The notes beneath the pieces are model-generated. The model saw only the letters and a list, made by a program, of their open reading frames with translations. It had not been told where the DNA came from and did not search any database. Positions 240 through 32,977 of a stretch of 32,977 nt of DNA are shown here, piece by piece (positions within the stretch are counted from its first letter, which is position 1; every line of letters starts with the position of its first letter). A program made the translations under genes and the position numbers. The DNA is taken from NCBI GenBank assembly GCA_013298595.1, contig JAAFIG010000045.1, positions 1 to 32,977 on the forward strand, written 5' to 3'. This DNA is from Deinococcales bacterium (GTDB lineage Bacteria > Deinococcota > Deinococci > Deinococcales > JAAFIG01).

Positions 240-2033
240 ATGACTTTACCTAAGCGCTCTGAGTTACCCAAAGAACAAACATGGGCTATCGAATCTGTTT
301 TTGCTTCCGAAGCCGAGTGGCGTGTGGCGCTCGAGAAAGTTCGGGCTTCAGCGGCGAAAATAGCGGTTTTTAAGGGGCGTTTAGCCGAGTCAGGTGCGGT
401 GTTACTCGAGGCGCTTGAAACTCGGGATGCTTTGACGCTCGAGGCTTCGACGATGGGGTTGTATCCAAGTTTGCTCAGTGCCACTGAAGGTACAAATACA
501 ACGTACTCGAGTATGAGTGGTGAAGCTGGTGCGGCTGGTGCGATGTTGATGGGTGCGGCAGCGTTTATACAGCCTGAGTTGCTGAGTTTAGATGCAGCCA
601 AACTCGAGGCATTGATTGCCGAAGAACCTCGTCTGGAATTGTATCGTCAGGCGTTTGCTGTGTTGCAAGATCGTAAGGAGCATGTGCGATCTGGTGAAGT
701 GGAAATGTTATTAGCGCAAGCCAATGATCCGTTAAGTGCTGCTAGTCGGATTTCTGATGCGGCATCTGATGCCGATATGAAATTCTCGAGTATTGCTGGT
801 GGTGTGACTATTTCGCATACCAGTGTTGGTGAGTTACTGGCGGGGACGGATGCCAGTGTACGTCGGGCTGCGTGGGAATCGTATGCTGATGGGCATTTGG
901 CTTTCCAAAATACGTTGGCAGCAACATTGCAGGGTAGCATTAAAAGTTTTGTTTTTAAGATGCGTGCCAGAGGCTATAACAGCAGTTTAGAGATGTCTTT
1001 GGCACAGAATCATATTCCTGTGTCCGTGTTTGAAAATTTACTCAAAACCTTTAAAGAAAATCTGCCAACGTGGCATCGTTACTGGGCACTTCGTAAAAAA
1101 GCCATGGGTGGCAAGGTTCACACTTTTGATATTCCGATTTACGATTCACCTGCACCGTTAATTGCCAGCCCTAAAATGACGTTTGCCGAAGCCAGCAATG
1201 TCATTCTCGAAGGCATGAAACCCCTTGGTGAGCGATACACCGAACCGATGCGTAAGGGTTTGTTTGAGCAGCGTTGGGTGGATTGGGGGCAGAACGAAGG
1301 TAAGGGAGCTGGGGCATTCTCGAGTGGTACCAAGAGTACGTTTCCATTTATTTTTCAGAGTTGGTCAGATGATATGTACAGCATGTCCACTTTGGCACAT
1401 GAACTTGGGCATTCGATGCACTCGTATTTTACTCGAGCCACGCAACCAACGGTCTACGCCAATTATGGTTTATTTGTGGCTGAGGTCGCCAGTAATTTTA
1501 ATCAAGCCATGGTGCGTGCCGATTTACTCCAAAAAGCTGATAGCAAAGAAGCTAAATTGGCGATTCTCGAGGAGGCTTTCTCGAATTTTCATCGCTACTT
1601 ATTTGTCATGCCGACCCTAGCTATTTTTGAACGCGAATTGTACGAACGTATCGAACGGGGCGGAGCAATTAATGCACCATTCTTAGCTGAGCGTTTAGTG
1701 GCATTGTTTTCCGAAGGGTACGGTGGGCATGTCGAAATAGATGCAACCCGACTAGGTTCGTGCTGGATGAATTTCGGGCATTTATACGCACCATTTTACG
1801 TTTATCAGTACGCCACAGGGATTGCCGCCGCGAACGGACTTGCCAAAGATGTACTCGAGCAAGGACAACCCGCTGCCGATAAGTACTTGCAGTTCCTCAG
1901 TGCGGGCAGTTCAGATTACCCACTCGAGGTTTTAAAACTAGCAGGCATTGATATGAACAACCCCGAACCTGTCGAACGAGGTTTTGCAGTACTTAAAGAT
2001 ATGGTGGATCAACTCGAGCTATTAGTTGGGTGA
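240..2033 (+). CDS. pepF: M3 family oligoendopeptidase F-like metallopeptidase
   Basis: This 597-residue cytosolic zinc metallopeptidase is of the M3 (oligoendopeptidase F/thimet) family, which hydrolyses short peptides. The zinc-binding HELGH is at residues 387-391 (H387, E388, H391). The third ligand is E415 in the segment GLFVAEVASNFNQ, about 24 residues downstream as expected for M3. Length and all-helical composition match the PepF/M3B group (about 560-610 residues). ATG 240 is preceded by a TACACT -10 box and no ribosome-binding site, so translation is probably leaderless. The gene stands alone: a transposase remnant is upstream and a separately promoted lipoprotein gene is downstream. 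The reading frame is intact and contains about a dozen CTCGAG sites in different frames. Family identity is secure; the substrate range is not known. Confidence 0.93.
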   Translation: MTLPKRSELPKEQTWAIESVFASEAEWRVALEKVRASAAKIAVFKGRLAESGAVLLEALETRDALTLEASTMGLYPSLLSATEGTNTTYSSMSGEAGAAGAMLMGAAAFIQPELLSLDAAKLEALIAEEPRLELYRQAFAVLQDRKEHVRSGEVEMLLAQANDPLSAASRISDAASDADMKFSSIAGGVTISHTSVGELLAGTDASVRRAAWESYADGHLAFQNTLAATLQGSIKSFVFKMRARGYNSSLEMSLAQNHIPVSVFENLLKTFKENLPTWHRYWALRKKAMGGKVHTFDIPIYDSPAPLIASPKMTFAEASNVILEGMKPLGERYTEPMRKGLFEQRWVDWGQNEGKGAGAFSSGTKSTFPFIFQSWSDDMYSMSTLAHELGHSMHSYFTRATQPTVYANYGLFVAEVASNFNQAMVRADLLQKADSKEAKLAILEEAFSNFHRYLFVMPTLAIFERELYERIERGGAINAPFLAERLVALFSEGYGGHVEIDATRLGSCWMNFGHLYAPFYVYQYATGIAAANGLAKDVLEQGQPAADKYLQFLSAGSSDYPLEVLKLAGIDMNNPEPVERGFAVLKDMVDQLELLVG

Positions 2034-2064
2034 AACAAGTATTGCTTTTTTGAACAGCCAAGCT

Positions 2065-2114
2065 ACTTCTTTTGTGCTAATGGCAAGTAAAAATAAATAA
2101 CTTCTTTTGTACTA
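2065..2114 (+). repeat. Short direct repeat pair ACTTCTTTTGTRCTA
   Basis: A 15-bp sequence occurs at 2065-2079 and 2100-2114, differing at one base, 35 bp apart in the AT-rich spacer after pepF. No function is apparent; it may be a slippage duplication. Confidence 0.45.
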
Positions 2115-2163
2115 CTGGTGCAATTTTATTCATAGCTAAACAACATATCTAAGCTTTTCACCT

Positions 2164-2207
2164 ACCGTCACACCTTCGACTATCGCGTGTGACGGTTCTG
2201 TGACGGT
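2164..2207 (+). promoter_or_regulatory. Operator-like cluster of three TGTGACGGT sites upstream of the lipoprotein gene
   Basis: ACCGTCACA at 2164-2172 is the exact inverse complement of TGTGACGGT at 2188-2196, and a further direct copy lies at 2199-2207, exactly 11 bp from the second. A TAGACT -10-like hexamer follows at 2215-2220, and the SD and ATG of the lipoprotein gene come about 50 bp later. The geometry (inverted plus direct repeat, one helical turn apart) is typical of an activator or repressor operator. The TGTGA core resembles a CRP/FNR half-site, but the extended GG and the spacing differ. Confidence 0.5.
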
Positions 2208-2274
2208 AATGGGGTAGACTATGTGAGAAGTCTCGCTTCGGATAAGGATTCCGACTTGAGTAATGGAGGAATAT

Positions 2275-2889
2275 ATGAACAAAGCAGTATTATTAGGAGC
2301 TGCCCTCGGATTAAGCACCATTTTTGCAAGCTGTGGATTGATTCCACCAATTAAAGTTGATAACCCCATCGGTTTAAGTGGTGCGGTTATGAGTGCAGAT
2401 TTAAGTGCTACAGGGGCTTCATTGCGCCCGCAAGTGGCTGGACAAGGCACTGCCAGTGCGAGTGCCACTTTCGCTGACCTGACCACAAGCATTCCATTCA
2501 CACCAAGTTCGTTCAATGTGCAACTTGCTATTACCAGTGCTGCAATTTCCAATAATTGCGCCGCCCTGGGAACGAACACCAGCATTGCTGTCAATATAAC
2601 CAACATGACGGTCTCGGTCAGTGATGGCACTGGCAACACTGCACGCAGCGTCACCGCTAACATCCCAAACTTCACCTTTAACATCAGTAACACAGGTGTA
2701 GTCAGTGGTTTGAATCCTGCGGCTTTGTTGTTTGCTATTCCAAACATCGGCACTGCTATCAGCATCGTCTCCACAGCACCTACACCAAACAGTGCGACAG
2801 TAAACGCGACCATTGCCACCACTCCGCCTTTGAGTGGCTGCACCGTCAGCTTTACCTTTGGAACTGGAAGCGGCGAAATCAAACTCTAA
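2275..2889 (+). CDS. Small secreted lipoprotein of unknown function
   Basis: The start is ATG 2275, preceded by GGAGG at 2265-2269; an upstream in-frame ATG at 2263 would precede that SD. The product has 204 residues. The first 20 residues form a lipoprotein signal peptide with lipobox IFASC, so the Cys would be acylated and the protein exported to the outer face of a membrane. The mature part is rich in Ser, Thr, Ala and Asn with alternating hydrophobic residues. It has no charged catalytic pattern and holds a few Cys residues (for example NNC and SGC) that could form one disulfide. This looks like a beta-rich adhesion or structural domain. It contains no CTCGAG site, unusual for its length here. 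It has its own repeat-rich promoter region and a strong terminator. I do not recognise the family. Confidence 0.8.
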   Translation: MNKAVLLGAALGLSTIFASCGLIPPIKVDNPIGLSGAVMSADLSATGASLRPQVAGQGTASASATFADLTTSIPFTPSSFNVQLAITSAAISNNCAALGTNTSIAVNITNMTVSVSDGTGNTARSVTANIPNFTFNISNTGVVSGLNPAALLFAIPNIGTAISIVSTAPTPNSATVNATIATTPPLSGCTVSFTFGTGSGEIKL

Positions 2890-2908
2890 ACCACCTGTAC
2901 CAATTCAT

Positions 2909-2941
2909 CCCTCAACTCGAGAACAGTTGAGGGATTTTTTT
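2909..2941 (+). terminator. Rho-independent terminator after the lipoprotein gene
   Basis: CCCTCAACT (2909-2917) pairs perfectly with AGTTGAGGG (2925-2933) around a 7-nt loop, and a run of T follows from 2935. A CTCGAG site straddles the stem-loop junction (2916-2921). Confidence 0.9.
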
Positions 2942-3021
2942 ATGCTCATCCTTTAGAACGATGCTAAAAATAAGGCTGTCAACAATAATGCCTTTATCCT
3001 CGAGCCAACAGGAGTGACCAT

Positions 3022-3633
3022 ATGCAAACACTCATAAGCCAAAATTGGACGTATCGTTTTTTACTACTTGGTTTTGCAGCCCCAATTTGTTACTTTGGTA
3101 TTCAATTACTAGCAGCTCCTTGGTACGAAAATTATAGTTTCCTAACCAATGCTGCCAGCGATCTTGGCTCTGAGCAATCGGTTTACCCTATTGTTTTTAA
3201 CAGCGGCGCAATCATCACAGGTTTTATCACTGCTCTCAGCGCTTACGGTTTTTGGCATGGACTAACCAATATACGCACCCCTCGAGCCATCATTTACATC
3301 GTCTGTCTCGGTATTATCTTAGCGGGACTAAGCAGCATCTGGGCAGGAATATACCCATTACCAGACTCGAGACATGGCGCAAATCCTTTTGCAATTGGTT
3401 TATTTACCCTGCCATTTTTCATGTTTCTAGCATTTTGGCAACAAACCAAAGCTCGAGTTTATTTACTAGCGCCCATCCTGCTTTTTCTGAGTTTAGTACC
3501 CATTATGAGCGGATTAATTCCAATCAACCAACAACCCATAGCTGGTTTATTACAACGATTACTGGCATTGGCAGCATTTTCGCCATTGGCAATAGGTGCT
3601 TATTTGCTGCTAAGAAATAAGGCAAAGCAATAA
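3022..3633 (+). CDS. DUF998 family integral membrane protein
   Basis: The product has 203 residues with about six hydrophobic helices. The N-terminal segment is followed by the motif TNAASDLGS (about residues 42-50), and a later helix end carries IYPLPDSRHG. This N-x-x-SDLG plus P-x-x-x-x-x-H arrangement is characteristic of DUF998 membrane proteins, whose function is unknown. The start ATG 3022 has AGGAG at 3010-3014. The gene is monocistronic, with the terminator of the previous gene upstream and a REP-like hairpin downstream. Several CTCGAG sites lie inside, so it appears native to this genome. Confidence 0.75.
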   Translation: MQTLISQNWTYRFLLLGFAAPICYFGIQLLAAPWYENYSFLTNAASDLGSEQSVYPIVFNSGAIITGFITALSAYGFWHGLTNIRTPRAIIYIVCLGIILAGLSSIWAGIYPLPDSRHGANPFAIGLFTLPFFMFLAFWQQTKARVYLLAPILLFLSLVPIMSGLIPINQQPIAGLLQRLLALAAFSPLAIGAYLLLRNKAKQ

Positions 3634-3688
3634 AAATAGCTGTTGCTCGAGTCAACAAGATTCTAAGCAGAAAACGACATAAATTTCC

Positions 3689-3717
3689 GTAGGGCGCGAA
3701 CCTTGTGTTCGCCCTGT
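3689..3717. repeat. REP-like palindrome (GGGCGAAC type)
   Basis: AGGGCGCGAAC (3691-3701) can pair with GTTCGCCCT (3707-3715), giving a GC-rich stem with a 2-nt bulge in otherwise AT-rich spacer. Such GTAGGGCGAAC...GTTCGCCC hairpins are common as dispersed repeats in many bacterial genomes. No poly-T follows, so it is unlikely to be a simple terminator. Confidence 0.55.
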
Positions 3718-3819
3718 AACTGATAGTGATTTACAAACCATGTGAAATGCCATTGATTTGTTTGCAAAATAGGTGAAGTATCAAGGTGCAAAGCCCATCT
3801 GACTGAAGAAGCAATGAAT

Positions 3820-4539
3820 TTATATAGATTGCGGTTCTTCTAAGTTTAAATATCGAAGTAAAATATCTTTCGTTAAAGACAACATTGCAAAACGTTGAGT
3901 TGAAGTAGTTTGAGGAAATTCTATCCAATTCCCATGTCTTATAGGGTCAGCAAAGTTCTTTATGGTAGTTGTAATAGTGTTACGATCAGTACCAAGAGTA
4001 GTGTGCATATCATTCCAACTTTCGTTTCCAGTTTTAAAAACGAAAGCAGATTTAATACCTTCTATTGTACGAAAGCAGTAACTTGCACAATTGATAACAT
4101 CAGAGATAGCAGCACAGTAATCTCGAAGGGCAAGGCGAAAAAAAACATCACGTTTTGATAATTCTGCTGCACGATAAAATATATGATTATACTCGGCAAA
4201 ACCCAAAAGACTTTCTCCATCTGGGTCTATTGGTCGAACTCCAAAAACGGAGGCTGTATTATCCTCTTCAACTACTTGAATTATTTCTACAGAATAACCT
4301 GAACCAAGAGCAAACCCTAATGCACTAACAAATATTGAAGCAGCATCTTCTGCCAGTATGTTAGCATCAATGCAATTAAATATATCATCATCCCAACGAA
4401 CTATAGCTGTTAATTGAGAAGAATCAACACTAAAGATAACTGAATTATTTCGATTTTCCCTCGAATAAATCGTTTGTGGTGAGATGTGTACAGATGCTCG
4501 TTCTGGTTGCACTTTTCCAGTGACAATAAACTTTTTCAC
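3820..4539 (-). CDS. Hypothetical protein, probably horizontally acquired
   Basis: This is a 239-residue soluble protein with no signal peptide, no membrane helix and no motif I recognise. The N-terminus MKKFIVTGKVQPERA leads into a mixed alpha/beta sequence. The C-terminal half is richer in Thr and Asn (HTTLGTDRNTITTTIKNF). The start is GTG 4539-4537, with TAAACT (4546-4551) 6 nt upstream and no SD. The gene is markedly AT-richer than its neighbours and contains no CTCGAG; the nearest sites are at 3646 and 4680. It sits between a REP-like hairpin and a stray mutS2 fragment. These points suggest acquired cargo, perhaps a domain of an immune or mobile-element accessory protein, but no function can be assigned. 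Confidence 0.7.
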   Translation of the reverse strand: MKKFIVTGKVQPERASVHISPQTIYSRENRNNSVIFSVDSSQLTAIVRWDDDIFNCIDANILAEDAASIFVSALGFALGSGYSVEIIQVVEEDNTASVFGVRPIDPDGESLLGFAEYNHIFYRAAELSKRDVFFRLALRDYCAAISDVINCASYCFRTIEGIKSAFVFKTGNESWNDMHTTLGTDRNTITTTIKNFADPIRHGNWIEFPQTTSTQRFAMLSLTKDILLRYLNLEEPQSI

Positions 4540-4545
4540 TCTGTG

Positions 4546-4551
4546 AGTTTA
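4546..4551 (-). promoter_or_regulatory. -10 box TAAACT of a probable leaderless mRNA
   Basis: Read on the minus strand, TAAACT is followed by 6 nt and the GTG start of the hypothetical gene ending at 3820. No SD is present. Confidence 0.45.
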
Positions 4552-4616
4552 TATAAATTCGTGAGTAACTACATCCGTCATTTTATATAGATGTATTTGG
4601 CAATTTAACTTATGAT

Positions 4617-4688
4617 TTAAACTCGGATATTTGCCACAGTCACACCATGCTCGCCTTCGTTGGAGTCAGCTTGCTATAACTCGAGAAT
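4617..4688 (-). pseudogene. Stray copy of the mutS2 3' end
   Basis: On the minus strand 4670-4617 encodes ADSNEGEHGVTVANIRV followed by TAA, almost the C-terminus of the intact MutS2 encoded at 5368 (ANPNEGGHGVTVANIRV plus stop). At DNA level about 58 of 73 positions match the segment 5368-5440, with one gap, and both copies end in a CTCGAG about 65 bp inside. Upstream of the conserved part the frame is closed by TAG and TAA (4674-4679), so this is only a terminal fragment. Together the two copies flank the aspartic-protease gene pair as direct repeats 751 bp apart. Many differences are third-codon transitions, suggesting descent from a related functional mutS2. Confidence 0.75.
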
Positions 4689-4715
4689 ACCCTAACCTTT
4701 CTAAACATTTTGCCC

Positions 4716-4721
4716 TACAAT
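4716..4721 (+). promoter_or_regulatory. -10 box TACAAT of a probable leaderless mRNA
   Basis: TACAAT is followed by exactly 6 nt and ATG 4728. This decides the start of the small partner gene in favour of ATG 4728 over the upstream in-frame TTG at 4710. Confidence 0.55.
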
Positions 4722-4727
4722 ACCCAC

Positions 4728-4988
4728 ATGACTTACCAAGAAGTACGGCAACATTACCCCGAAACATGGCTTTTGCTCGAGGCTTTGCGCGGGCGCACAG
4801 AGGGTGAATTTCGCGTACTTGAAGATGTTTCTGTACTTGCAAGCTTCTCAGATTCGTTTGCGGCACTTGTGGCATACAGGGAATTTAAGAAAGCTGCCCC
4901 AGAGCGTGAATTATACGTTGTTCATAGTGCAAAGCCAGAATTACAAATTAAGGAACGTCAGTGGCTTGGTATTAGGAGTGCTGCGTGA
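4728..4988 (+). CDS. Small conserved partner protein of the aspartic protease unit
   Basis: This is an 86-residue soluble protein beginning MTYQEVRQHYPETWLLLEAL. It has a central acidic stretch (TEGEFRVLEDVSVLASFSDS) and a C-terminal segment ERELYVVHSAKPELQIKER. The pattern YPxxWLLxEAL...VL...F...A...Y.....P.RE.Y.VH....EL.I matches small proteins I recall encoded immediately before retropepsin-like proteases in Chloroflexota and Cyanobacteria; their function is unknown. ATG 4728 is leaderless (TACAAT, 6 nt). The stop overlaps the GTG start of the protease gene by 4 nt, implying translational coupling and probably a physical or antitoxin-like partnership. The unit is flanked by direct repeats of the mutS2 3' end. 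Confidence 0.7.
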   Translation: MTYQEVRQHYPETWLLLEALRGRTEGEFRVLEDVSVLASFSDSFAALVAYREFKKAAPERELYVVHSAKPELQIKERQWLGIRSAA

Positions 4989-5371
4989 AATTAAGGTTGG
5001 AACGTGGTTTATTGCTTGGTCAGGTGAGTATTTTTCATGCAGGTAAGACATTAGAACTTGACCGAGTTTTGATTGATACAGGTTTGGCAAGTTGTGTTTT
5101 TCAAACTGAGGAATTGCGAAAAATTGGTGTGGATTTTGAGCCTGATGATGAATTGCAGCGAATTCCAGGGGTTGGTGGTTCGGAATTTGTTTTTTCTAAG
5201 CGCTTGATGCATTTGCAAGTCGGGCGTTTGAGCGCTTTTGATTTTCAGGTTGAAATCGGTTGGATGGATTATGGTTTTGCGCTCCAAGGCATTATTGGGT
5301 TGGATTTTTTATTGCAAACAAATGCCGTGATTCATCTTGCAGACTTAGAATTGCAGTCTAGCTCGAGTTAA
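4985..5371 (+). CDS. Retropepsin-like aspartic protease family protein
   Basis: The product has 128 residues and a single-domain retroviral-type aspartyl protease fold that would act as a homodimer. The catalytic motif VLIDTGLAS is at about residues 28-36 (D-T-G). A flap-like region IPGVGGSEFVFSKR follows, then the second hydrophobic-Gly motif GIIGLDFLLQ near residue 104, as in retropepsins. The start is GTG 4985 with AGGAG at 4974-4978, and it overlaps the partner gene's stop. There is no signal peptide, so it is cytosolic. Its stop codon overlaps the mutS2 stop on the other strand. Processing targets are unknown; the co-translated small protein is the obvious candidate substrate or regulator. 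It has no CTCGAG until its last codons. Confidence 0.8.
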   Translation: MKLRLERGLLLGQVSIFHAGKTLELDRVLIDTGLASCVFQTEELRKIGVDFEPDDELQRIPGVGGSEFVFSKRLMHLQVGRLSAFDFQVEIGWMDYGFALQGIIGLDFLLQTNAVIHLADLELQSSSS

Positions 5372-7659
5372 ACCCGTATGTTTGCCACAGTTACACCATG
5401 CCCGCCCTCGTTGGGGTTGGCATCGGAATAACTCGAGATTCGTTTATCGGTTTTTAAGTAATCGCGTACCACACGGCGTAATATCCCTTCGCCTTTGCCA
5501 TGTAAGATACGAATTTGTCCTTCGCGTAAGGCTTGGGCTTCGGTGATGAAGTTGCGGACTTCTTCGATGGCTTCTTCAACATGTGCACCGCGTAAATTCA
5601 GTTCTTTGGCAAAGTTGCTGGCAGATACATACACACCACCTGTTGCCGCTTTGACGCTGATGCCGTTTTGTTGTTTGAGTTTGACATCGCGGCGTTTTAG
5701 GGTCACTTTCAGTAATCCCATTTGTACCAGCACATCGTCGCCGCGTAACTCGAGGATTTTGCCATTGGTGCCATAACTGGGTACTTCGACATTTGCGCCT
5801 GCGCGTAGGGCTTCTGGTTCGCGCTGTACCGCGCTGATTTGTGGGCGTTCGGCTTGGGCTGCGGCGCGGAGTTCGCGTAGTTCTTGCATGACTTTTGGTC
5901 GTTCGGTGAGGTCGTCTCGAGCACGGTTTTTCATTTGTCGGACTTGTTCCATTGCGTCGCGGTAAATGCTGTCAGCTTTGGCTTGGGTCTCGAGTAAAAC
6001 TTGGTTTTTTTGTTGCTCGAGTTGATCGAGTTTGGTTCGGAGTTCTTTTTGTTCGCGTTCGGCGAGGTCTTTGGCAATACGAGCTGCGGTTGCGTCAGCT
6101 TCGAGGGTTTTGCGTTCTCGCTCGAGGCTTTCGAGCAGTTTTTCGACTTGTAGCCCTTCAGGTCCGAGGATTGTTTCGGCTCGAGTGACGGTGCTGTTAG
6201 GAAAGCCTAAGCGTCTGGCGATGGCAAGGGCGTAGGAGCGTCCGGGTGCGCCGATGGTCAGTTTGTAAGTCGGTCGCAGTTCGGCGACATCAAAGCCCAT
6301 GCTGGCATTGACCACATCTTGGCGATCAGCGGCGAATATTTTTAATGGCGATAAGTGGCTAGTGATAATACCTCGAGCACCTTGTGCCAATAATTGTTCG
6401 ATCATAGCTTGGGATAAAGCTGCGCCTTCGGAGGGGTCGGTGCCGCTGCCTAACTCATCAATTAAAACGAGCGTGCCTGCTTTGGCTCGCTCGAGAATGG
6501 CTGATAAGTTTTTTAGGTGTGCGGCAAAGGTACTAAGGCTTTCCATTAGGTTTTGTCCATCGCCAACATCACAGAGGATATCTTCGACTATTGGTAATTT
6601 GGCGCTGTACGCTCGGACGTACAATCCGCTTTGGTACATGGCAACCGCTAAACCTAAACTTTTCAGGGTTACAGTTTTGCCACCCATGTTTGGACCAGTA
6701 ATTAAAAGCAAACGTCGCCTCTGGTCGAGGCGAAACGAGTTAGGTACACAATTTTCGATGAGTGGGTGCTTAACATCGATCAGTTCAAAATCACCTTCGG
6801 GATTATTTTCTGGTCGAGCTAAACCCCAGTCTTTGGTTAAGGCGGCTTTGGCGGCAATTAAATCGAGTTCGGCAACGGCGCGAATGGTTTCCCAAAGGTT
6901 TGGTTCGTCGGCAACCATACGGGTGAGCTCGAGTAAAATTCGGGCAACTTCTTGTTCTTCTTCGATGACCGTGCGGGCAAGTTCGTTATTGAGTGGAACA
7001 ACACTGGCGGGTTCAATAAAAACGGTTTGTTGAGAGGCGCTCGAGTCCACAACAATTCCGGGTACCTGATTTTCAAAACTCGAACGTACAGGTATGACGT
7101 ATCTGTCGCGGCGAATGGTAATGATTTTATCTTGTAGGTATTCGCCGTTGCGTTCCATGATACGGGTTAAACTATCTCGGATTTGGCTGCGTAAAGGCTC
7201 GAGGCGGCGGCGTAATTGGCGTAATTTTGGGCTGGCATCATCGCGGACACTGCCATCGCGGTTGAGTTTCTCGAGGATGTTGCGGGTCAAAATGGTGTGT
7301 TGCCCTATTTTGTCTGCAACGTGCATCAGCGGTCCGAGGCTATGCTGGGCAATACTGCGGCGCAAAGTCATGGCAGCTTCGAGGGTGTATGCCACCTCGA
7401 GCAGTTCTGGTGCGCCAACCAGTTGCCCTTGGGTCAGTTTATTCAGTACGCCTCGCACATCGGTAACACCACCTAAGTGCAAATTGGCTCCAACCAGTGC
7501 ATCCTCGAGTTGTTCAAGCATGGTTCGTACTGCATAAGCATCGGTGCTAGGCATTAATGCTAAGGCAAGTTCACGACCCATGGTTGTGCTGGCACGTTCC
7601 GCTAGGGCGGCTCGGACAGGGTTAAACTCAAGGACTTCTAAAGCACGGGGGGTTATCAC
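5368..7659 (-). CDS. mutS2: MutS2, ribosome-rescue/recombination-control ATPase with Smr domain
   Basis: The 763-residue product has the full MutS2 architecture: an N-terminal helical core and clamp, and a MutS-type ATPase with Walker A GPNMGGKT at residues 322-329 and Walker B LVLIDELGSGTD near residue 400. A long charged coiled coil follows (about 510-600), and then a C-terminal Smr nuclease domain with LNLRG (in place of the usual LDLRG) and HGKGEGILR. MutS2 proteins suppress homologous recombination and, in Bacillus, act on collided ribosomes. The start is GTG 7659-7657 with GGAG just upstream. The promoter region has a clean TATAAT and a small hairpin. A second partial copy of its 3' end lies at 4617-4688. 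The coiled-coil region is especially rich in CTCGAG. Confidence 0.95.
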   Translation of the reverse strand: MITPRALEVLEFNPVRAALAERASTTMGRELALALMPSTDAYAVRTMLEQLEDALVGANLHLGGVTDVRGVLNKLTQGQLVGAPELLEVAYTLEAAMTLRRSIAQHSLGPLMHVADKIGQHTILTRNILEKLNRDGSVRDDASPKLRQLRRRLEPLRSQIRDSLTRIMERNGEYLQDKIITIRRDRYVIPVRSSFENQVPGIVVDSSASQQTVFIEPASVVPLNNELARTVIEEEQEVARILLELTRMVADEPNLWETIRAVAELDLIAAKAALTKDWGLARPENNPEGDFELIDVKHPLIENCVPNSFRLDQRRRLLLITGPNMGGKTVTLKSLGLAVAMYQSGLYVRAYSAKLPIVEDILCDVGDGQNLMESLSTFAAHLKNLSAILERAKAGTLVLIDELGSGTDPSEGAALSQAMIEQLLAQGARGIITSHLSPLKIFAADRQDVVNASMGFDVAELRPTYKLTIGAPGRSYALAIARRLGFPNSTVTRAETILGPEGLQVEKLLESLERERKTLEADATAARIAKDLAEREQKELRTKLDQLEQQKNQVLLETQAKADSIYRDAMEQVRQMKNRARDDLTERPKVMQELRELRAAAQAERPQISAVQREPEALRAGANVEVPSYGTNGKILELRGDDVLVQMGLLKVTLKRRDVKLKQQNGISVKAATGGVYVSASNFAKELNLRGAHVEEAIEEVRNFITEAQALREGQIRILHGKGEGILRRVVRDYLKTDKRISSYSDANPNEGGHGVTVANIRV

Positions 7660-7679
7660 AAATTCTCCAACAAAATCTC

Positions 7680-7713
7680 GAGGTGCAAAATAACACCTCA
7701 GCCAAAGATTATA
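7680..7713 (-). promoter_or_regulatory. mutS2 promoter -10 (TATAAT) and 5' leader hairpin
   Basis: On the minus strand TATAAT lies at 7713-7708. About 10 nt later the leader can form a hairpin, GAGGTG (7699-7694) with CACCTC (7685-7680) around an 8-nt loop. The SD GGAG and GTG start follow. No good -35 is visible at 17 bp. A leader stem so near the SD could modulate translation. Confidence 0.5.
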
Positions 7714-7946
7714 AATCCCAAGCAGTCTAAAAGAATGCGCTTAACGGCGTAGAGCAGGGTCTTATTATGGCGTAAGTCGAATAAAGTAGGTTAAATCTTC
7801 TAAAAACAGACTGATTTGGTTTCGATAGCAGTGTTTTCTGAATCAACAGTATGGTTTTTGTTGTTTTGCTCGTCAATCAAAACATTGTAATTTAGTTCAT
7901 GGTTTATGTGGATCAATCTAAGTAATCTACCAATCGGCAGATAATT

Positions 7947-8525: not shown

Positions 8526-8612
8526 ATCTCAGGAGGTACATACCGTTAAAAATCTACCAAACAGTCGTTTGTATCTGATAACGCCACGCTCAAATTAACT
8601 TGGAAAAACATT

Positions 8613-9152: not shown

Positions 9153-9154
9153 CC

Positions 9155-23297: not shown

Positions 23298-23328
23298 CCA
23301 GTGCGAGGTGTTTAATTTGTACCAAACA

Positions 23329-23430: not shown

Positions 23431-23431
23431 T

Positions 23432-25084: not shown

Positions 25085-25087
25085 GAT

Positions 25088-27214: not shown

Positions 27215-27271
27215 CTTTTCTCCTTTTGTTACCTTAGACTTCAACAAGCGAATGTATTGTGATTTGGTGGT

Positions 27272-27320
27272 GTCCGAAAGACCAGAGGCGGTATCCTAAA
27301 GTGTCCTCTTTATTTGTCCT
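27272..27320. promoter_or_regulatory. Composite GTCC-repeat element upstream of the lipoprotein operon
   Basis: Repeat units start at 27272 (GTCCGAAAG), 27293 (ATCCTAAAG) and 27303 (GTCCTCTTT), spaced 21 and 10 bp, with AGAGGCG in the long gap. A fourth GTCC is at 27316. Positions 27272-27306 match 27 of 35 bases of the element at 30799-30833 with identical spacing. Both have the same orientation relative to the minus-strand gene they precede. Confidence 0.7.
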
Positions 27321-27343
27321 GATAAATTTGGGATAAAGCTGTT

Positions 27344-27553
27344 TCAAACAGTTTCTTGGGGTTTTTCTTGGGCAACCAGTTTGGAAAAATCCAGTCCGCA
27401 GGTAACACAGAATTTGGAAAATGGCGAGTTGATTTGGCTATCGCAACGCACGCAACGCTCGAGTAAACGAGTACCGTCGTTGGCACAGAAACGTTCTTCT
27501 GCACGAGCGGGGACAGCTCGAAAGCACTTTGGGCAAATCCGAAAGTTATTCAC
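27344..27553 (-). CDS. Small double zinc-ribbon protein
   Basis: The product has 69 residues from GTG 27553, chosen because GGGAG lies 4-5 nt upstream; a more distal TTG at 27568 would place that SD inside the gene. Two zinc ribbons are visible. CPKC pairs with a single downstream FC plus ANDG, in an incomplete first ribbon. CVRC with FCVTCG makes a complete second one. The pattern matches the DZANK/zinc-ribbon modules that often accompany signalling proteins. It follows the BTAD regulator gene by 82 bp on the same strand, and the TGGTTA array sits in that gap. It is probably a protein-protein adaptor; no target is known. Confidence 0.7.
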   Translation of the reverse strand: MNNFRICPKCFRAVPARAEERFCANDGTRLLERCVRCDSQINSPFSKFCVTCGLDFSKLVAQEKPQETV

Positions 27554-27601
27554 CACACTCCCTCTCAATTGATTTCCTTGGTTTCAATTGTGTAAGTAGT
27601 A

Positions 27602-27649
27602 TGGTTACTGCGTGGTTATATTTTGGTTATAAGTTTTAGCGGCTGGTTA
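27602..27649. repeat. TGGTTA direct-repeat array with 11-bp period
   Basis: TGGTTA starts at 27602, 27613 and 27624 (exactly 11 bp apart), and again at 27644. The last copy lies inside the final codons of the BTAD gene and forms the palindrome GGTTATAACC. Eleven-bp direct repeats of about 6-7 bp are the classic layout of SARP/BTAD-regulator binding sites. The array lies just upstream of the zinc-ribbon gene. Confidence 0.6.
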
Positions 27650-30600
27650 TAACCAAGTCTTTTTGTTGTAAAAAATCACTTGCCAGATGCGATAACTCTA
27701 TACCCACTTCGAGAAATTGGCTTCGCGCAGTATCGAATAGTTTTTTCATACTCGAGTTATGACCAGCACTTTGGTAGGCTCGCATCGTCAATTCAAGGGC
27801 TTCTAAGTCGTATGGTTCGATTTCTCGCCAGATCATGCCAAGTCGAGCAGCTTCTTGTGGGTTACTTTCTGCAAGTATTTCCACAGTGTTTTTCAGTGCG
27901 TAAAGGAGTGTTTCTTGCACAGTCGAAAACCAGCCTTGTCCGAAACCACTGAGGTACGCACCACGCCATAAACTCGAGTCTTGATTTTTTAGAAATAGCT
28001 CGATATCACTCGAGATTTCACCTAACGTGTAACCATTGGTGGTGCTTTGTATTATTTCAGTTCCTATTTGCGTTCGTATTTGAAAAACAAGTTGCTTTAA
28101 TGCCGCTTTGCTTTCGCTGTCCGAAAGCTCGGGATACAAAGCCTGACACAAGTCTGCGGTGGTTGCTTCGCTACGTCCCACAAGTCGGGTTTCGAGTAAG
28201 TAAGCCAAGCATTCAAGACGTTTTCGTCCGCGAATTTTCAACGGCTGTTGTGCATTCTCGAGGTTGATTGTTCCAAGAACATTGATTTGCATTGTGTTAT
28301 TACTAGGAGTTTGGGTGGTTGTCTGGGTAACCATAAACTCTTGGATATGACCATAAAGACTTTGTTTTTGAAAGTAATTCAATTTGTCTTGTAACGTATT
28401 CTTATTTTGTGATAAATCGGCTAGCTGCAATTCTATTAAGTGTATTTCGATTTCACTTTTGGTTTTTTGTGAAAAACTTAAAGCCTGCAACAAATCACTT
28501 TCGGCGCTCATGGTATCGTTTATTTTTTTATAAATTCTTCCTCGTAGCAAATAAGCAGCTGCTTCAAGTGGAGCGACAGATTTACTACGAATTATTTCCA
28601 AAGCTTGATTGCAAAATGTTAAAGCATCTTGACTCTGACCATAATGCGCTTCAACCTCGGCACAACCTAATAAACCCAACGTCAAACTCATCGGAGTTTG
28701 CTCTTGACGATCAAGCAACATGGCTTCTTTACTATATTTTCGAGCCATAAATTCACTATACGGTTGCTGCCAAATACAGTACAACCGCGTCAATGCCTTT
28801 GCACAAGAAGAAATAGCACTGGGGAAATTTTGTCTTAAATGAATATCTCGAGCCTCGAGCAGAGTACTTTCGGCAGCTTGGTACTCGCCAAGATCTGTTT
28901 GTAGCATACCAAGAATATTTTGCATCCATGCACCACGTACAATATGCCCAGCTTGATGGGTTAATACTAGCGCTTCTAAAATACTGTCTCGGGCAATAGA
29001 AAATTGTCCAATTACCCTTCCGATATTGGCACGGTTGTACAAGAATACAGTGATTGAATCTAGCATCTCGAGTTGTTTGGCTTTTTCCACCAGTTGCCCT
29101 AGTAAATCAAAGGCTTCTTGTAATTGCCCTTGCATTATTAAGGCATTGGCTTTTTGCTCGAGTAAACCAATATGTTCTTGTTCAGTGAGGTCAGTTCTGT
29201 TAAGTGCCTGATGTAAGATTTTGTTACCTTCGCTGTGTTGCCCAATTTCTCGGTAAGCTATGATAACTCGTTCTAGTGTGCCAGCTTGAGCAATTGCGTG
29301 TAAATCACTATTGGTTTGCCAGTAGTTCACAGCTTCTTGATAATTTGCGGCAGCTACCAGTGTTTCAAAGTAAAGCGCTTTCCAGCGGCTTGTCTCTTGC
29401 TGGTCGGCAGACACCGCTCGCAGAATCTCGAATCCGTGAGGCGTCTGCCCTGTGTTATACGTTGATTTTACTAGGATTCGTACAATATCTAAGTTGTTAG
29501 GGGAAAGAGAATTTGCCCAGTGGGCAATTTCAGTTGCATTGCGACCAACTTGCATTAATGCTTCTCCTGCTTTTATTGCAGCTAAAACTTGCTTTTCGAT
29601 TGGTAATAATTTAACAATTTGAACTTGTAACTGAGCTTGCAATGTACGTTTTCCTGTGCGTATTGCATCGGCTATTGCTAGTTCAAGAATTTCAACAGCT
29701 TGATGATTCGGTAGTTGTGCCATATCTAAGTAACTCACAGCTATTTCTGGTTGGATTGTTTTAAGAATTTGGATTAATTGCTTCGCAAATTTTTGTTTTT
29801 GTGACATCGAGATTTGCTGTTGTATTACTTCGTTAAATAATGGATGGACAAAGTTATGGTTGATTAGCAGTTTTTGTATTTGTAGAATGCCGTATTTTTC
29901 TTGCCAATCCGACGCACTGACTTCAGACAATGCTTGCCAAACGCTTTCAAAGTTCGCAAAGGGTTCGGCAGGTAGCAAAGCTCTTATTGTTAGAATAGAT
30001 TGCAAAGCACTATCTTGATTAACTTGTTGTAAACGTTGTTCTATGAGTGCTTGAACAGTGAGTGGTAAAAAATCATTGTTTGGTGCACGCCAATACCATT
30101 GTGTACCATCTGACCACAACGACCCAGCACGTGTTAGATACCTCAAAAACTCTAAAGCAAACAATGGATTACCTTGGCTGCGTTGCAGAATCCAATCCAA
30201 AGCACTTTGAGGTATCTGCGTAGCCATTTCTTTGGTCAGTAAATCGCGTATTTCTTCGGTGGTGGCTTGCTCGAGAAAAAGCTGAATCGGAAAATCCTCT
30301 GGGCAAGTTCGACTTGTGGCTAACAAACCAACACCACGAACTCGAGTAAGTGCTTGGGTTAATTGATTAAGTTCTGCTTGTTGTTCGCTACTCATTTCAT
30401 GCAAATCCTCGAGATGGAGTACAAAAGGTACTAAGTGCGTGATTACTGCGATGAGACTTTCAAATATGGCTTTTTTAGGTATTGTTTCTTGTTTATCGAT
30501 TCGTTGTAATTGTATCTGTACCCAAGTGGGCAATTTTTGTGGTTTTGGTAGTAATTTGAGAATTTTTTCAAATGAAGTAGTGGCTGCAAGACTAATTGAA

Positions 30601-30749
30601 CGACAGGCAATTTCACGCAGCGCAGCTTGGGCTGTATGGGTTTTTCCTATGCCCGGTTCGCCCCAAACTGCTAGAAAAACACTGGTTTTTTTAGAAAGAA
30701 TTGGCTGTAAACGGTTACTAATATCTTGTACGACCAAATTTCGATTCAT
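27636..30749 (-). CDS. Large ATPase-TPR transcriptional regulator with C-terminal wHTH-BTAD
   Basis: The 1037-residue one-component regulator is of the STAND type. The P-loop GEPGIGKT is at residues 30-37 and the Walker B-like VLHLEDLHEM near 140. A winged-helix region ends the ATPase module. A long helical TPR-like array spans about 330-800. A C-terminal winged-helix DNA-binding domain (INVLGTINLENAQQPLKIRGRKR, about 820-905) is followed by a BTAD domain (SDIELFLKNQDSSLWRGAYLSGF ... EPYDLEALELTMRAYQSAG, to the end). Putting the DNA-binding module last reverses the actinobacterial SARP order. I chose ATG 30749 (AGGAG 12 nt upstream). The frame extends to TTG 30878, but that would place the operator repeats inside the coding region. 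It likely regulates itself and its neighbours. Confidence 0.88.
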   Translation of the reverse strand: MNRNLVVQDISNRLQPILSKKTSVFLAVWGEPGIGKTHTAQAALREIACRSISLAATTSFEKILKLLPKPQKLPTWVQIQLQRIDKQETIPKKAIFESLIAVITHLVPFVLHLEDLHEMSSEQQAELNQLTQALTRVRGVGLLATSRTCPEDFPIQLFLEQATTEEIRDLLTKEMATQIPQSALDWILQRSQGNPLFALEFLRYLTRAGSLWSDGTQWYWRAPNNDFLPLTVQALIEQRLQQVNQDSALQSILTIRALLPAEPFANFESVWQALSEVSASDWQEKYGILQIQKLLINHNFVHPLFNEVIQQQISMSQKQKFAKQLIQILKTIQPEIAVSYLDMAQLPNHQAVEILELAIADAIRTGKRTLQAQLQVQIVKLLPIEKQVLAAIKAGEALMQVGRNATEIAHWANSLSPNNLDIVRILVKSTYNTGQTPHGFEILRAVSADQQETSRWKALYFETLVAAANYQEAVNYWQTNSDLHAIAQAGTLERVIIAYREIGQHSEGNKILHQALNRTDLTEQEHIGLLEQKANALIMQGQLQEAFDLLGQLVEKAKQLEMLDSITVFLYNRANIGRVIGQFSIARDSILEALVLTHQAGHIVRGAWMQNILGMLQTDLGEYQAAESTLLEARDIHLRQNFPSAISSCAKALTRLYCIWQQPYSEFMARKYSKEAMLLDRQEQTPMSLTLGLLGCAEVEAHYGQSQDALTFCNQALEIIRSKSVAPLEAAAYLLRGRIYKKINDTMSAESDLLQALSFSQKTKSEIEIHLIELQLADLSQNKNTLQDKLNYFQKQSLYGHIQEFMVTQTTTQTPSNNTMQINVLGTINLENAQQPLKIRGRKRLECLAYLLETRLVGRSEATTADLCQALYPELSDSESKAALKQLVFQIRTQIGTEIIQSTTNGYTLGEISSDIELFLKNQDSSLWRGAYLSGFGQGWFSTVQETLLYALKNTVEILAESNPQEAARLGMIWREIEPYDLEALELTMRAYQSAGHNSSMKKLFDTARSQFLEVGIELSHLASDFLQQKDLVITSR

Positions 30750-30798
30750 CCAAAACCGATCTCCTGTATGGCTAGTATTTCCATTGTTTATTACGAAA

Positions 30799-30839
30799 GT
30801 CCCAAATGCTAGAGGCGATGTCCCAAATTGTCCCGAAAT
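30799..30839. promoter_or_regulatory. Composite GTCC-repeat element upstream of the BTAD regulator gene
   Basis: GTCCCAAAT at 30799-30807 and 30820-30828 and GTCCCGAAAT at 30830-30839 are spaced 21 and 10 bp, about two and one helical turns. AGAGGCG lies at 30811-30817. The arrangement and 27 of 35 bases recur at 27272. It starts 50 bp upstream of the regulator's ATG, suggesting autoregulation. Confidence 0.7.
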
Positions 30840-30889
30840 CGAAATAATTTGCTTCGCACACTCAACTTTTACTTTCAATAGTTATACGT

Positions 30890-31366
30890 ACTTTGTCCAA
30901 AACGATATCGTATGGAATTAACTTAATCACTCTCGTTTGACCAAAAAAGCGATCAAACTGTCGTTCTTACTCACAAGACAGCACCGTCGCGCCTATGGAT
31001 GGACTGGTAGCACACAAAAGCGAAGCGGGCTGTTCGCTCTTCAAGCGTTAATTCCGTGTCGTTGTTACTCCTTTTCTTGCTCACAAGACAGCACCTTCGG
31101 GCTGTTCGCTCTTCTTCGGTTCATCAGTCAAAATACACGACTGATGAACACAATTCGGTATCAGCTGGTTTTCTTCACGCATCAACAGTGTGTCGTTTTA
31201 AAGGATAAATATGAGCATCTGTTGGTAAGGATATCAAATTTTTTACGGATGCAAAAAAATCAAAACGCTTTAGACTATAGGCTATACGTTTATGAAAATC
31301 CCGCAAGACAATTGGGGATAGTAAAGATATTGGTTTTGTATCTTTTGGCGACTGCGTTGCAACCAA
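30890..31366. other. Gene-poor region between regulator and peptide gene
   Basis: This stretch of about 480 bp holds the duplicated block and a perfect 9-bp hairpin (TCATCAGTC 31121-31129 with GACTGATGA 31139-31147). There is also a small stem AGCGAA/TTCGCT at 31019-31038. No CTCGAG occurs between 30413 and 31646. Open frames on both strands are low-quality. A structured untranslated RNA or a decayed insertion is possible; I see no convincing gene. Confidence 0.5.
30964..31114. repeat. Duplicated sequence block in the intergenic region
   Basis: CTCACAAGACAGCACC occurs at 30970-30985 and 31080-31095, preceded each time by TTCTT plus one base. CGGGCTGTTCGCTCTTC occurs at 31026-31042 and 31098-31114. 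In the second block the two parts are joined directly; in the first they are separated by 38 extra bp. Thus a block of about 40 bp is present twice, once interrupted. No open frame spans it credibly. Confidence 0.65.
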
Positions 31367-31495
31367 CTAATCCAATTCTAGGTAAAAGCCGCCAATTCGG
31401 TATGTTTCGGTGGTACTTGGTTGTGTATTATCAGCAAATACAGTGGCTCCAAAACATGTAAAAACGAAAATCGCTAACAAGCATATTTTTTTCAT
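31367..31495 (-). CDS. 42-residue exported peptide precursor
   Basis: Read on the minus strand: ATG 31495, strong SD AAGGAG about 5 nt upstream, stop TAG 31369-31367. The N-terminal 21 residues MKKICLLAIFVFTCFGATVFA are a textbook Sec signal peptide with cleavage after VFA. The predicted mature peptide is 21 residues, starting DNTQPSTTETYRIGG and ending FYLELD. It lies between the BTAD regulator gene and the divergent sensor kinase gene, with a GTCC repeat pair about 90 bp upstream and TTGTTG/TAGATT promoter hexamers 17 bp apart (31578-31573 and 31555-31550). A signalling-peptide role is an inference. The frame stays open for 63 more codons after the TAG, so a truncated longer protein is the alternative. 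Confidence 0.65.
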   Translation of the reverse strand: MKKICLLAIFVFTCFGATVFADNTQPSTTETYRIGGFYLELD

Positions 31496-31523
31496 AAATA
31501 CTCCTTTGGAGCACTAAATTTTC

Positions 31524-31540
31524 GTACAATTGCATTGTAC
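31524..31540. promoter_or_regulatory. Perfect palindrome GTACAAT-TGC-ATTGTAC
   Basis: Seven-base arms surround 3 bp, about 30-45 bp upstream of the peptide ATG and downstream of its proposed -10. The minus-strand sequence also has a perfect TTGACA at 31551-31546. The position fits a repressor operator over the start region of the peptide promoter. Confidence 0.55.
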
Positions 31541-31584
31541 ACCAATGTCAATCTATTTGTACTTTTTTAAATCAACAAGATATT

Positions 31585-31603
31585 GTCCCAAAATGTCCTA
31601 AAA
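31585..31603. promoter_or_regulatory. GTCC repeat pair between the peptide and kinase genes
   Basis: GTCCCAAAA (31585) and GTCCTAAAA (31595) are 10 bp apart, as in the promoter-distal pair of the two composite elements. Orientation relative to the minus-strand peptide gene is the same as at the other two sites. On the other side, TATACC at 31612-31617 could be the -10 of the kinase gene, 8 bp from the repeat. Confidence 0.6.
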
Positions 31604-31657
31604 CTTATCACTATACCTTCGGGCTAGTCTAGGCGTACAGTGAGTCTCGAGGATCTA

Positions 31658-32977
31658 ATGACCGTTGTTTCGCATAAGTTATCTGAGCAGCAGAAACGTT
31701 TTTTCTCACAATTAGCGTTTTGGCTATCTCGAGTAATTTGGGTTTTTTTTGCGGTCGTTGCTATTACTTTAATGCTTGTTTTCTCTTGGTATTTCTGGGA
31801 TTTAGCAACAACCTCCCCATGTTCAACAAATAATTGTAGTGCTTTGCTGACTTGGTTATCACAGTTTGGTTTTGGTGTTGAAGTTTTTGCAGTTTTGTAT
31901 TTAATCAGTTTTGTTGTACCGGTGCTGATTTGGCTGGCTGTGGCATTCTGGATTTATTTATCGCAACCGCATCAACTTTGGAGTGTTATTTTCTCGCTCT
32001 TTTTCTTGATTGGTTGGTATAGCGAAGTGAGTTTGCAGTATTTACGTGGCTCTATGCCACTGGCAATGGCTTATACACTCGAGTCGGTAGGCTTGCAAAA
32101 TGTGTTCTCGAGCCAAGCAGTTATTGGTTTTAGTGAGTATTTACGTGGCATTCTGAAAGTGATTGCCGATAATTTATTGGTGTTGGTGGTTTTTGCTTTT
32201 CCGAATGGTCGCTTATATCCGTTTTGGTCGCGCTATTATTTGTTGTTTTTTGCCTTGTTATCGGTTGGATATAGTTTGCCGTTTTTACGAGAAACCACGT
32301 GGAATTATGCACGCTTAGATTTTCCGTGGAATGTTGCAATCAATTTTTTGTTGTTGCTTGGCTTACTATGGGGGGCTTTGCTACGTTTTCGCCAGAGTTC
32401 CGATGCGGTGCAACAGCAAGTACGAAGTATTTTTCCAATTGTGATTGTCAGTGTTTTTGTCTATTTTTTGGATCTACTGATAGCCATTGTACGAAAAAAT
32501 GGTGGTTTCTCGAGTCAGGAAATGCAGTCACCTGTTTTGCAACCGTTGCTTGATTTATTATTAAATTACTTCAATAGTTTCACCATGATTTGGTTGGCGG
32601 TAGCAGTAGCTCAAGCCATTGTACGCCAACAACTATTTGATATTCGTTTTGTCTTAAATCGGGCTTTAGCGTACAGCACATTGGTTGTTAGTTTAGCGGT
32701 TATTTACGGTTTGATTATTGGTGGTTTAGGCAGTTTGTTTCGTCAGACGGATATCTGGCTATCGATTGTCGCCACGGGTGTTGTTGCTGTACTTTTTCAT
32801 CCGCTGCTGGTTATTTTTCGCCAAACTGCTAACCGACTTTTTTATGGTGAACGCCACGACCCGTACCGAGCCATTAGTAATTTAGGTCGGCAACTCGAGG
32901 GTGCTCATAAACCCGAGGAATTGGCATTTACGATTGTGCAAACCTTGGCTTCAACGCTGCGTTTACCATATGTGGCA
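31658..32977 (+). CDS. Sensor histidine kinase, multi-TM N-terminal part (3' end beyond window)
   Basis: From ATG 31658 (GAGGA 4 nt upstream) the frame is open for 440 codons to the window edge. There are seven or eight hydrophobic helices between residues 20 and 385 (for example VIWVFFAVVAITLMLVFSW and LLVLVVFAFPNGRLYP). The segment FDIRFVLNRALAYSTLVVSL, then ATGVVAVLFHPLLVIF, NRLFYGERHDPYRAISNLG and LAFTIVQTLASTLRLPYVA follows. This ...NRxLxYGERxDPYxxLxxLG... junction is typical of LiaS/NarL-type membrane histidine kinases in Chloroflexota and Deinococcota, where a GAF and a HisKA_3 kinase domain follow. The kinase itself is not in the window. It is divergent from the exported-peptide gene. 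Confidence 0.82.
   Translation, partial: MTVVSHKLSEQQKRFFSQLAFWLSRVIWVFFAVVAITLMLVFSWYFWDLATTSPCSTNNCSALLTWLSQFGFGVEVFAVLYLISFVVPVLIWLAVAFWIYLSQPHQLWSVIFSLFFLIGWYSEVSLQYLRGSMPLAMAYTLESVGLQNVFSSQAVIGFSEYLRGILKVIADNLLVLVVFAFPNGRLYPFWSRYYLLFFALLSVGYSLPFLRETTWNYARLDFPWNVAINFLLLLGLLWGALLRFRQSSDAVQQQVRSIFPIVIVSVFVYFLDLLIAIVRKNGGFSSQEMQSPVLQPLLDLLLNYFNSFTMIWLAVAVAQAIVRQQLFDIRFVLNRALAYSTLVVSLAVIYGLIIGGLGSLFRQTDIWLSIVATGVVAVLFHPLLVIFRQTANRLFYGERHDPYRAISNLGRQLEGAHKPEELAFTIVQTLASTLRLPYVA

Follow-up and report, generated by a model that had tools for sequence, protein, structure and literature searches.

CTCGAG, a highly iterated palindrome in one Deinococcota lineage, is denser than cyanobacterial HIP1

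CTCGAG in the window and in the genome

The window, by which we mean the whole 32,977-nucleotide stretch analyzed, contains 160 copies of the palindrome CTCGAG, which reads the same on both strands, within positions 330 to 32899. The first copy lies at 330–335 and the last at 32894–32899; of the span 330–32898 given in the sequence-only reading, the start thus stands and the end falls one base short. Gaps between sites have a mean of 205 bp and a median of 141 bp, and the longest site-free stretch, at 30408–31645, covers 1238 bp. CTCGAG ranks first among all hexamers of the window by count, in comparison with expectations of 6.3 copies from base composition, 42 from a third-order Markov model, and 123 from a maximal-order Markov model, the higher-order expectations being inflated because CTCGAG dominates its own sub-words. 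The control palindrome of the same composition, GAGCTC, was noticed once in the earlier reading, at 6925–6930, and this is indeed its sole copy in the window. The MutS2-like gene at 5368–7659 on the minus strand has an orthologue in JAAFJQ010000009.1 with an 87% identical protein, and the sister genome recognized in this way is also rich in CTCGAG, with 112 sites in 19.5 kb.

The same imbalance is found across the 4.58-Mb genome, which holds 27,159 copies of CTCGAG (one per 169 bp) versus 15 of GAGCTC, an observed-to-expected ratio of about 29.5 to 29.8 by composition and not near Markov expectation; GCTCGAGC is present in 1,814 copies genome-wide, its reversed control in 1. The sequence-only reading had reported about 160 copies in 33 kb, where about 7 were expected, and proposed an excess of 20-fold or more with a HIP1-like layout in a Deinococcota-like genome. 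The count is confirmed, the excess is larger, at about 30-fold, and extends over the whole genome, and the source genome was placed in Deinococcota. The sequence-only reading knew of no description of such a CTCGAG motif in a Deinococcota-like genome, and we found none in the literature searched.

A strict six-base unit with an exclusion zone

The sites in the window fall into coding phases 0, 1, and 2 in 68, 29, and 34 cases, and a further 29 lie in 7.9 kb of spacers. Within-gene synonymous codon shuffling of the window genes left 10.9 ± 3.1 coding sites (200 shuffles, maximum 21) in comparison with the 131 observed. In genome G000, where all three phases are used, the density is 5.8 per kb in coding sequence and 5.5 per kb in spacers, and Leu-Glu is written CTCGAG in 66% of cases against an expected 6%; the synonymous occupancy in the other phases is 63% for [SPTA]R[VADEG] and 38% for xS[RS]. 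The dipeptide odds are 2.33 for Leu-Glu, 1.03 for Glu-Leu, and 0.73 for Val-Glu, and the excess of Leu-Glu implies that the pull toward CTCGAG alters the proteins. The reading of the excess as a by-product of codon or codon-pair bias, of palindrome avoidance in other words, or of a composition artifact draws on the fact that these genomes are strongly depleted in other GC-rich palindromes, with 0.04 to 0.17 of expectation for 6-GC palindromes. A 30-fold excess cannot, however, arise from avoiding other words, codon-pair bias is ruled out by the shuffling and the spacer density, and spacers as dense as genes, the use of three phases, and a ratio of 29.8 leave this reading hardly any credence. 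The earlier proposals that CTCGAG occurs in every codon phase and in spacers and that the force acts on DNA rather than codons are thus borne out, and the one-frame codon-pair bias that would have spoken against them was not found. A cellular process must write or protect CTCGAG.

The unit of iteration is exactly six bases: the rise in conservation is confined to them, and words that differ by one base show no enrichment. Sequences with zero, one, and two mismatches to CTCGAG had observed-to-expected ratios of 29.5, 0.78, and 0.70 by composition and 55.8, 1.12, and 0.82 under a first-order model, which puts the one-base variants at a neutral level of 0.78 to 1.12. Identity to the sister species is 0.86 to 0.88 at the six positions and 0.67 to 0.84 outside them. 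A longer motif is ruled out, the flanks being without strong preference and without conservation.

Neighboring sites avoid each other. The pair correlation of CTCGAG is 0 at 6 bp, about 0.3 at 7 to 14 bp, about 0.5 at 15 to 20 bp, and 1.0 from 21 bp; in the controls, it is 1.0 for other palindromes and 0.8 to 1.2 for generic inverted repeats. The spacing had first appeared exponential in the window, which has too few sites, and the larger sample shows the exclusion. Codon usage is ruled out as its source, since synonymous occupancy likewise drops at short distance from another site. So are hairpins, since distances of 7 to 8 bp, at which a hairpin is impossible, are depleted like those of 9 to 14 bp, and at 15 to 20 bp inverted repeats in general show no depletion. 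The search for helical phasing gave no 10.5-bp signal among the strongest periods and only the codon period of 3. The exclusion zone suggests a bound reader with a footprint of about 20 bp and favors a protein-binding target as the role of CTCGAG, but it could also originate from an enzyme stalled on its own product.

Persistence and turnover among relatives

A density of about 6 CTCGAG per kb is common to four genera and two families of one Deinococcota order, with 5.9 to 6.5 per kb in five genomes (G000 to G003 and G012) of GC content 0.45 to 0.59. In a survey of 111 genomes, a weaker excess was seen in those resembling Meiothermus, where G068 and G061 were the strongest of the family, and in those resembling Trueperaceae; Thermus-like genomes and G004 had no excess. 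The conservation of sites in aligned relatives, proposed earlier as a check, is clear at short range: 134 of 194 CTCGAG sites are shared with the sister species versus 23.6% of hexamers of the same composition (P = 2e-34). At conserved Leu-Glu positions, the use of CTCGAG is associated within the genus (odds ratio 4.8, P = 3e-5), whereas between genera it is mutually independent (odds ratio 0.4 to 2.2, not significant). The sites thus persist within the genus and are continually refilled independently between genera, which together indicate that the force is still active. Conservation over long distances is thus no proof that the sites are ancient, as independent refilling explains the between-genus pattern.

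CTCGAG is a highly iterated palindrome (HIP) in the broad sense, a short palindrome in genome-wide excess in coding and noncoding DNA. It is not HIP1, defined by GCGATCGC with a GATC/CGATCG core in cyanobacteria, as both the word and the host phylum differ. Like HIP1, which earlier authors linked to methylation and repair, it occurs chromosome-wide far above expectation; unlike HIP1, it is 6 bp long, shares no core with it, has no shared methyltransferase that we could find, shows a measured 20-bp exclusion zone, and has several times the density (5.9 per kb versus about 0.5 to 2.5 per kb; PMC4390886). The alternate HIPs of cyanobacteria, GGCGCC in Calothrix PCC 7103, RCCGGY in Oscillatoria PCC 10802, and GCSGC in Cyanothece PCC 7822 (PMC4390886), are similarly short strict palindromes dominant in place of HIP1, the Calothrix word also being a plain 6-mer, but each is an exception confined to one genome, which carries a putative cognate methyltransferase, whereas CTCGAG spans four genera and two families. 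The recognition sequence of XhoI/PaeR7I-type restriction–modification systems is identical to CTCGAG; restriction, however, normally depletes its own site, and here the site is in excess.

Candidate mechanisms

We tentatively regard CTCGAG as analogous to the cyanobacterial HIPs, with a putative strict DNA-binding reader and sites kept by benefit or by biased repair, a reading to which we give appreciable weight though short of an even chance. A putative strict sequence-specific factor would occupy each CTCGAG, reading it all-or-none as type II enzymes do and covering about 20 bp, and each separately occupied site would benefit the cell or bias repair. Through selection or biased repair, mutations completing a site would be kept and decayed sites restored up to a mutation-limited ceiling of about 6 per kb, while a second site within the footprint of an occupied one would add nothing and decay. 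As no methyltransferase common to all carriers was found in the five families searched, we consider an abundant chromosome-bound reader, such as a nucleoid or repair protein, more likely than a methyltransferase. The fully methylation-independent version, in which a stringent and abundant Deinococcota chromosome-binding protein with a footprint of about 20 bp would meet CTCGAG about every 170 bp and genome and proteins would be rewritten via selection or biased repair, we consider possible but somewhat unlikely. Against a bound reader, known nucleoid and regulatory proteins usually accept one-base variants, such strictness being more typical of restriction–modification enzymes; the patchy distribution of the excess would require gain and loss of the reader; and G008 shows no exclusion zone despite an approximately 10-fold enrichment.

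Elhai's proposal for cyanobacteria, in which a methyltransferase marks the sites and methyl-directed mismatch repair keeps site-creating mutations, would here call for non-orthologous enzymes of the same specificity in different genomes. Every HIP-bearing cyanobacterial genome has a putative cognate methyltransferase (PMC4390886), strict reading of a 6-bp palindrome is typical of type II enzymes, and giant viruses have nonhomologous CTCGAG methyltransferases of N6-adenine and N4-cytosine types (PMC7253447). The carrier genomes, 91 to 94% complete, are rich in methyltransferases, but none from the five families searched (PF01555, PF00145, PF02384, PF07669, and PF02086) is common to all of them. 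The most widely shared, the C5 methyltransferase L022, occurs in 4 of the 111 genomes, each of which is CTCGAG-rich, and had seemed to be the driver. It was set aside as most likely CCGG-specific, since one of its close relatives on plasmids lies next to an MspI-family (CCGG) nuclease and its carriers are depleted in CCGG. Two further candidates of G000 stand in restriction–modification-like pairs: L005 was set aside for its resemblance to methyltransferases paired with NotI-family nucleases, and L050, with a nuclease-like frame adjacent, because its matches are weak relatives only. The search for XhoI-family nucleases (PF04555) gave no match in 12 genomes, nor in 14 control genomes. Transition decay is about equal at C3 and G6 (CTTGAG 113, CTCGAA 133), which implies no m5C hot spot, and a repair range of about 1 kb does not predict a 20-bp exclusion. 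The methylation mark suggested earlier, if kept by a conserved enzyme, has so far found no backing, and the methylation-linked mechanism as a whole appears somewhat improbable.

Two other processes seem less probable still. Biased short-patch (VSP-like) repair that converts near-misses to CTCGAG without benefit to the cell would account for an excess that ignores coding phase and refills every accessible place, for the strict recognition, and for the forced change of protein sequence. The Vsr endonuclease is, however, absent in six of six strong carriers and present in G008 and G010 only, with positive controls; T:G repair cannot turn transversion neighbors into sites, yet Val-Glu (GTCGAG) is depleted; and an exclusion zone would be expected only if the repair enzyme remained bound. 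Such repair is therefore unlikely, and with neither Vsr nor a hot spot at C3, the repair footprint suggested earlier is not upheld in its VSP form. Uptake-sequence drive, in which natural transformation prefers CTCGAG-bearing DNA and recombination spreads the word as in Neisseria and Haemophilus, is slightly more doubtful again. Relatives in Thermus and Deinococcus are capable of natural transformation, G000 has type IV pilin-like genes (C1, 36 to 41 kb and 224 to 227 kb), and foreign-looking DNA is without sites; like the Neisseria DUS and Haemophilus USS, CTCGAG is a short genome-wide word under a directional force and refilled by point mutation. Known uptake words are, however, longer and usually present at about one per kb, whereas CTCGAG is shorter, denser, and palindromic, and redundancy would be expected at the scale of recombined tracts, not 20 bp. 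One-mismatch forms, also over-represented in Haemophilus and Neisseria (PMC1939737), are neutral here.

The HIP-like element CTCGAG is real and lies outside the cyanobacteria. What HIP1 does has been a question for decades, and CTCGAG provides an independent case from a different phylum, at several times the density, whose numbers allow measures that are hard to obtain for HIP1: the six-base boundaries, the exclusion of about 20 bp, the turnover, complete between genera at constant density, and the effect on amino acids. The excess affects analyses of codon usage, dipeptides, and phylogenetic signal in this clade. Meiothermus-like genomes seem to have milder forms of it, and as cultivable organisms would be among them, cell biological tests look feasible.

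Abundance and distribution of CTCGAG

The window holds 160 copies of CTCGAG where base composition predicts 6.3, an excess already noticed in the sequence-only reading, and the word heads the hexamer count. As that reading also claimed, every codon phase (68, 29 and 34 copies) and the spacers (29 copies) are used, and the same-composition palindrome GAGCTC occurs once, at position 6925. The 131 coding copies compare with 10.9 ± 3.1 after within-gene synonymous codon shuffling. A large AAA/TPR regulator-like protein, encoded on the reverse strand at 27636-30878, has site-poor surroundings (11 sites in 4 kb). The source genome (G000; 4.58 Mb in 68 contigs, 94% complete) contains 27,159 CTCGAG, one per 169 bp or ~3.6% of all bases, versus 15 GAGCTC; a 400 kb sample puts CTCGAG at 29.8 times the compositional expectation and the runner-up palindrome, TTGCAA, at 2.2 times. 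We are nearly certain that the element is real and resembles a highly iterated palindrome (HIP).

The MutS2 of the window has one public relative, on contig JAAFJQ010000009.1 of a Deinococcales MAG, the sister genome G001. We counted CTCGAG and GAGCTC across 111 genomes of the phylum. Strong carriers, with at least about 6 sites per kb, are G000-G003 (family f1, three genera) and G012 and G016 (family f2, genus g11), and GAGCTC is nearly missing from all of them. In samples of 30-400 kb, density was near constant at 5.8-6.3 per kb in G000, G001, G002, G003 and G012, at GC contents of 0.45, 0.50, 0.59, 0.54 and 0.50, respectively. Weaker excesses were found in G008 (3.4 per kb), G068 (2.9) and G104 (2.4), in genus g13, probably Meiothermus (CTCGAG over GAGCTC about 5:1), and on the Allomeiothermus silvanus plasmid pMESIL01 (63 vs. 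15 in 50 kb); none was seen in the survey in genus g7, probably Thermus, or in G004. A several-fold preference in many genera, but not in these two, hints that a weaker form is ancestral or was gained repeatedly.

The nearest phenomenon, a signature of the same kind, comes from cyanobacteria, whose HIP1 and alternate HIPs generally have a cognate methyltransferase; methyl-directed mismatch repair has been proposed as their cause (PMC4390886). CTCGAG differs in being denser, an unrelated word, in another phylum and without a shared cognate enzyme among the five methyltransferase families searched. It also differs from DNA uptake sequences, whose one-mismatch forms are enriched (PMC1939737). No earlier description of a CTCGAG HIP turned up in the openly searchable literature, in agreement with the first reading.

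Strictness, occupancy and turnover

In the conservation test suggested by the first reading, 134 of 194 G000 sites were also present in G001, versus 23.6% of same-composition hexamers (p 2e-34). Identity was 0.86-0.88 over the six positions and 0.67-0.84 in the flanks, and one-base variants were infrequent at the G001 counterparts (4.6% vs. 32%). Genome-wide, one-mismatch words stood at 0.78 of the composition expectation and 1.12 of the first-order Markov expectation, with transition products the more frequent among them.

In 433 kb of G000, coding and spacer DNA carry 5.8 and 5.5 sites per kb; 66% of 1,816 Leu-Glu dipeptides are written CTCGAG versus 6% predicted by codon usage, 4 of 807 Glu-Leu are written GAGCTC, and protein-neutral places are filled to 63% in phase 1 and 38% in phase 2, so that occupancy approaches saturation. 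Leu-Glu is itself 2.33-fold over expectation in this sample, compared with 1.03 for Glu-Leu and 0.73 for Val-Glu; the pressure therefore changes proteins too, and proteome composition appears shifted by a DNA motif. The surplus among other Leu-Glu spellings consists of the transition products CTTGAG (113) and CTCGAA (133), as expected from ordinary decay, and the CpG cytosine showed no special weakness among the Leu-Glu decay forms of G000.

In codon alignments, G000 shared 0.62 of sites with G001, 0.41 with G003, 0.29 with G002 and 0.25 with G012, versus 0.20, 0.07, 0.08 and 0.04 for controls. At places with Leu-Glu in both species, members of the same genus showed correlated occupancy (odds ratio 4.8, p 3e-5); between genera no correlation was detectable, each species filling most places independently. 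Sites are therefore lost and rebuilt while density stays constant, and refilling must be an ongoing process rather than a relic.

Spacing of sites and candidate mechanisms

Over about 0.9 Mb from five carriers, no two sites lay 6 bp apart; pair frequency was roughly 0.3 of the plateau for spacings of 7-14 bp, rose to roughly 0.5 for 15-20 bp and reached its normal level at 21 bp and beyond. Synonymous occupancy in G000 rose with distance to the neighboring site from 0.18 (6-11 bp) to 0.28 (12-17 bp), 0.47 (18-23 bp) and then 0.57-0.71, and the G001 curve has the same shape; because occupancy was scored only where the protein permits a site, protein sequence is not the cause. A similar close-range deficit is suggested by the small samples available for G068 (0.29 vs. 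0.71) and G104 (0.29 vs. 0.60), and no exclusion zone was found in G008. At 6 bp, two sites would create the avoided GAGCTC at their junction. Other palindromes in the same DNA had pair correlations of 1.05 and 0.99. Avoidance of hairpins between neighboring sites is insufficient as a cause, since no hairpin can form at 7-8 bp and generic GC-rich inverted repeats are at most mildly depleted (0.82 at 7-11 bp, 1.1-1.2 at 15-20 bp). The simplest reading of the zone is a bound factor, or reader, covering about 20 bp.

A methylation mark or a repair footprint had also been proposed, and neither found support in the forms searched for. Among five methyltransferase families in 12 genomes (assemblies 91-94% complete), no orthologue was detected in all strong carriers. 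The C5-type enzyme L022 was found only in G000, G001, G012 and G105, all CTCGAG-rich; a plasmid relative 58% identical to it adjoins an MspI-family nuclease, and the sampled carriers of L022 have CCGG at just 0.07-0.20 of the expected frequency. The probable target of L022 is therefore CCGG, which makes it a poor candidate for a CTCGAG methyltransferase. Another methyltransferase, L005, with a neighboring 275 aa frame (G000:C34 88.6-90.5 kb; L005 1399-3245), is two-thirds identical to plasmid enzymes adjoining NotI-family nucleases, its own neighbor is of similar size, and the pair is probably a NotI-type restriction-modification system. The frame beside locus L050 has a nuclease-like DLKSGFG stretch, read by eye from the translation, and the candidate enzymes L013, L058 and L124 may have CTCGAG specificity. 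A search run without a positive control did not find a XhoI nuclease. For a Vsr-type footprint, no Vsr was found in any of the strong carriers; control genomes gave matches.

The pressure on CTCGAG acts on DNA, is strict, directional and currently active, and excludes neighbors within 20 bp. In the mechanism that we tentatively favor, at somewhat under an even chance, a highly stringent reader would be bound at CTCGAG, and each separately occupied site would be favored via selection or biased repair.

Other words and acquired DNA

In samples of G000, G001 and G003, GGCC is at 0.01-0.02 and CCGG at 0.08-0.20 of expectation, with one GGCC in the window, and most GC-rich 6-mer palindromes are heavily depleted, a restriction-like avoidance unusually strong for a chromosome.

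The site-poorest stretch of the sample, G000:C34 71-83 kb (loci L093-L094), has almost no CTCGAG at 30-37% GC; judged from its translated genes it is a 12 kb polysaccharide/O-antigen-like cluster, apparently acquired recently. Type IV pilin-like genes (GFTLIELLIVIAIIGILAA), called from translations at G000:C1 36.5-42 kb and 224.6-225.6 kb, are also CTCGAG-poor, and low-GC methyltransferase genes tend to have few sites. Foreign-looking DNA is site-poor, and filling is thus slow relative to gene transfer; CTCGAG density could serve as a residence clock for acquired DNA.
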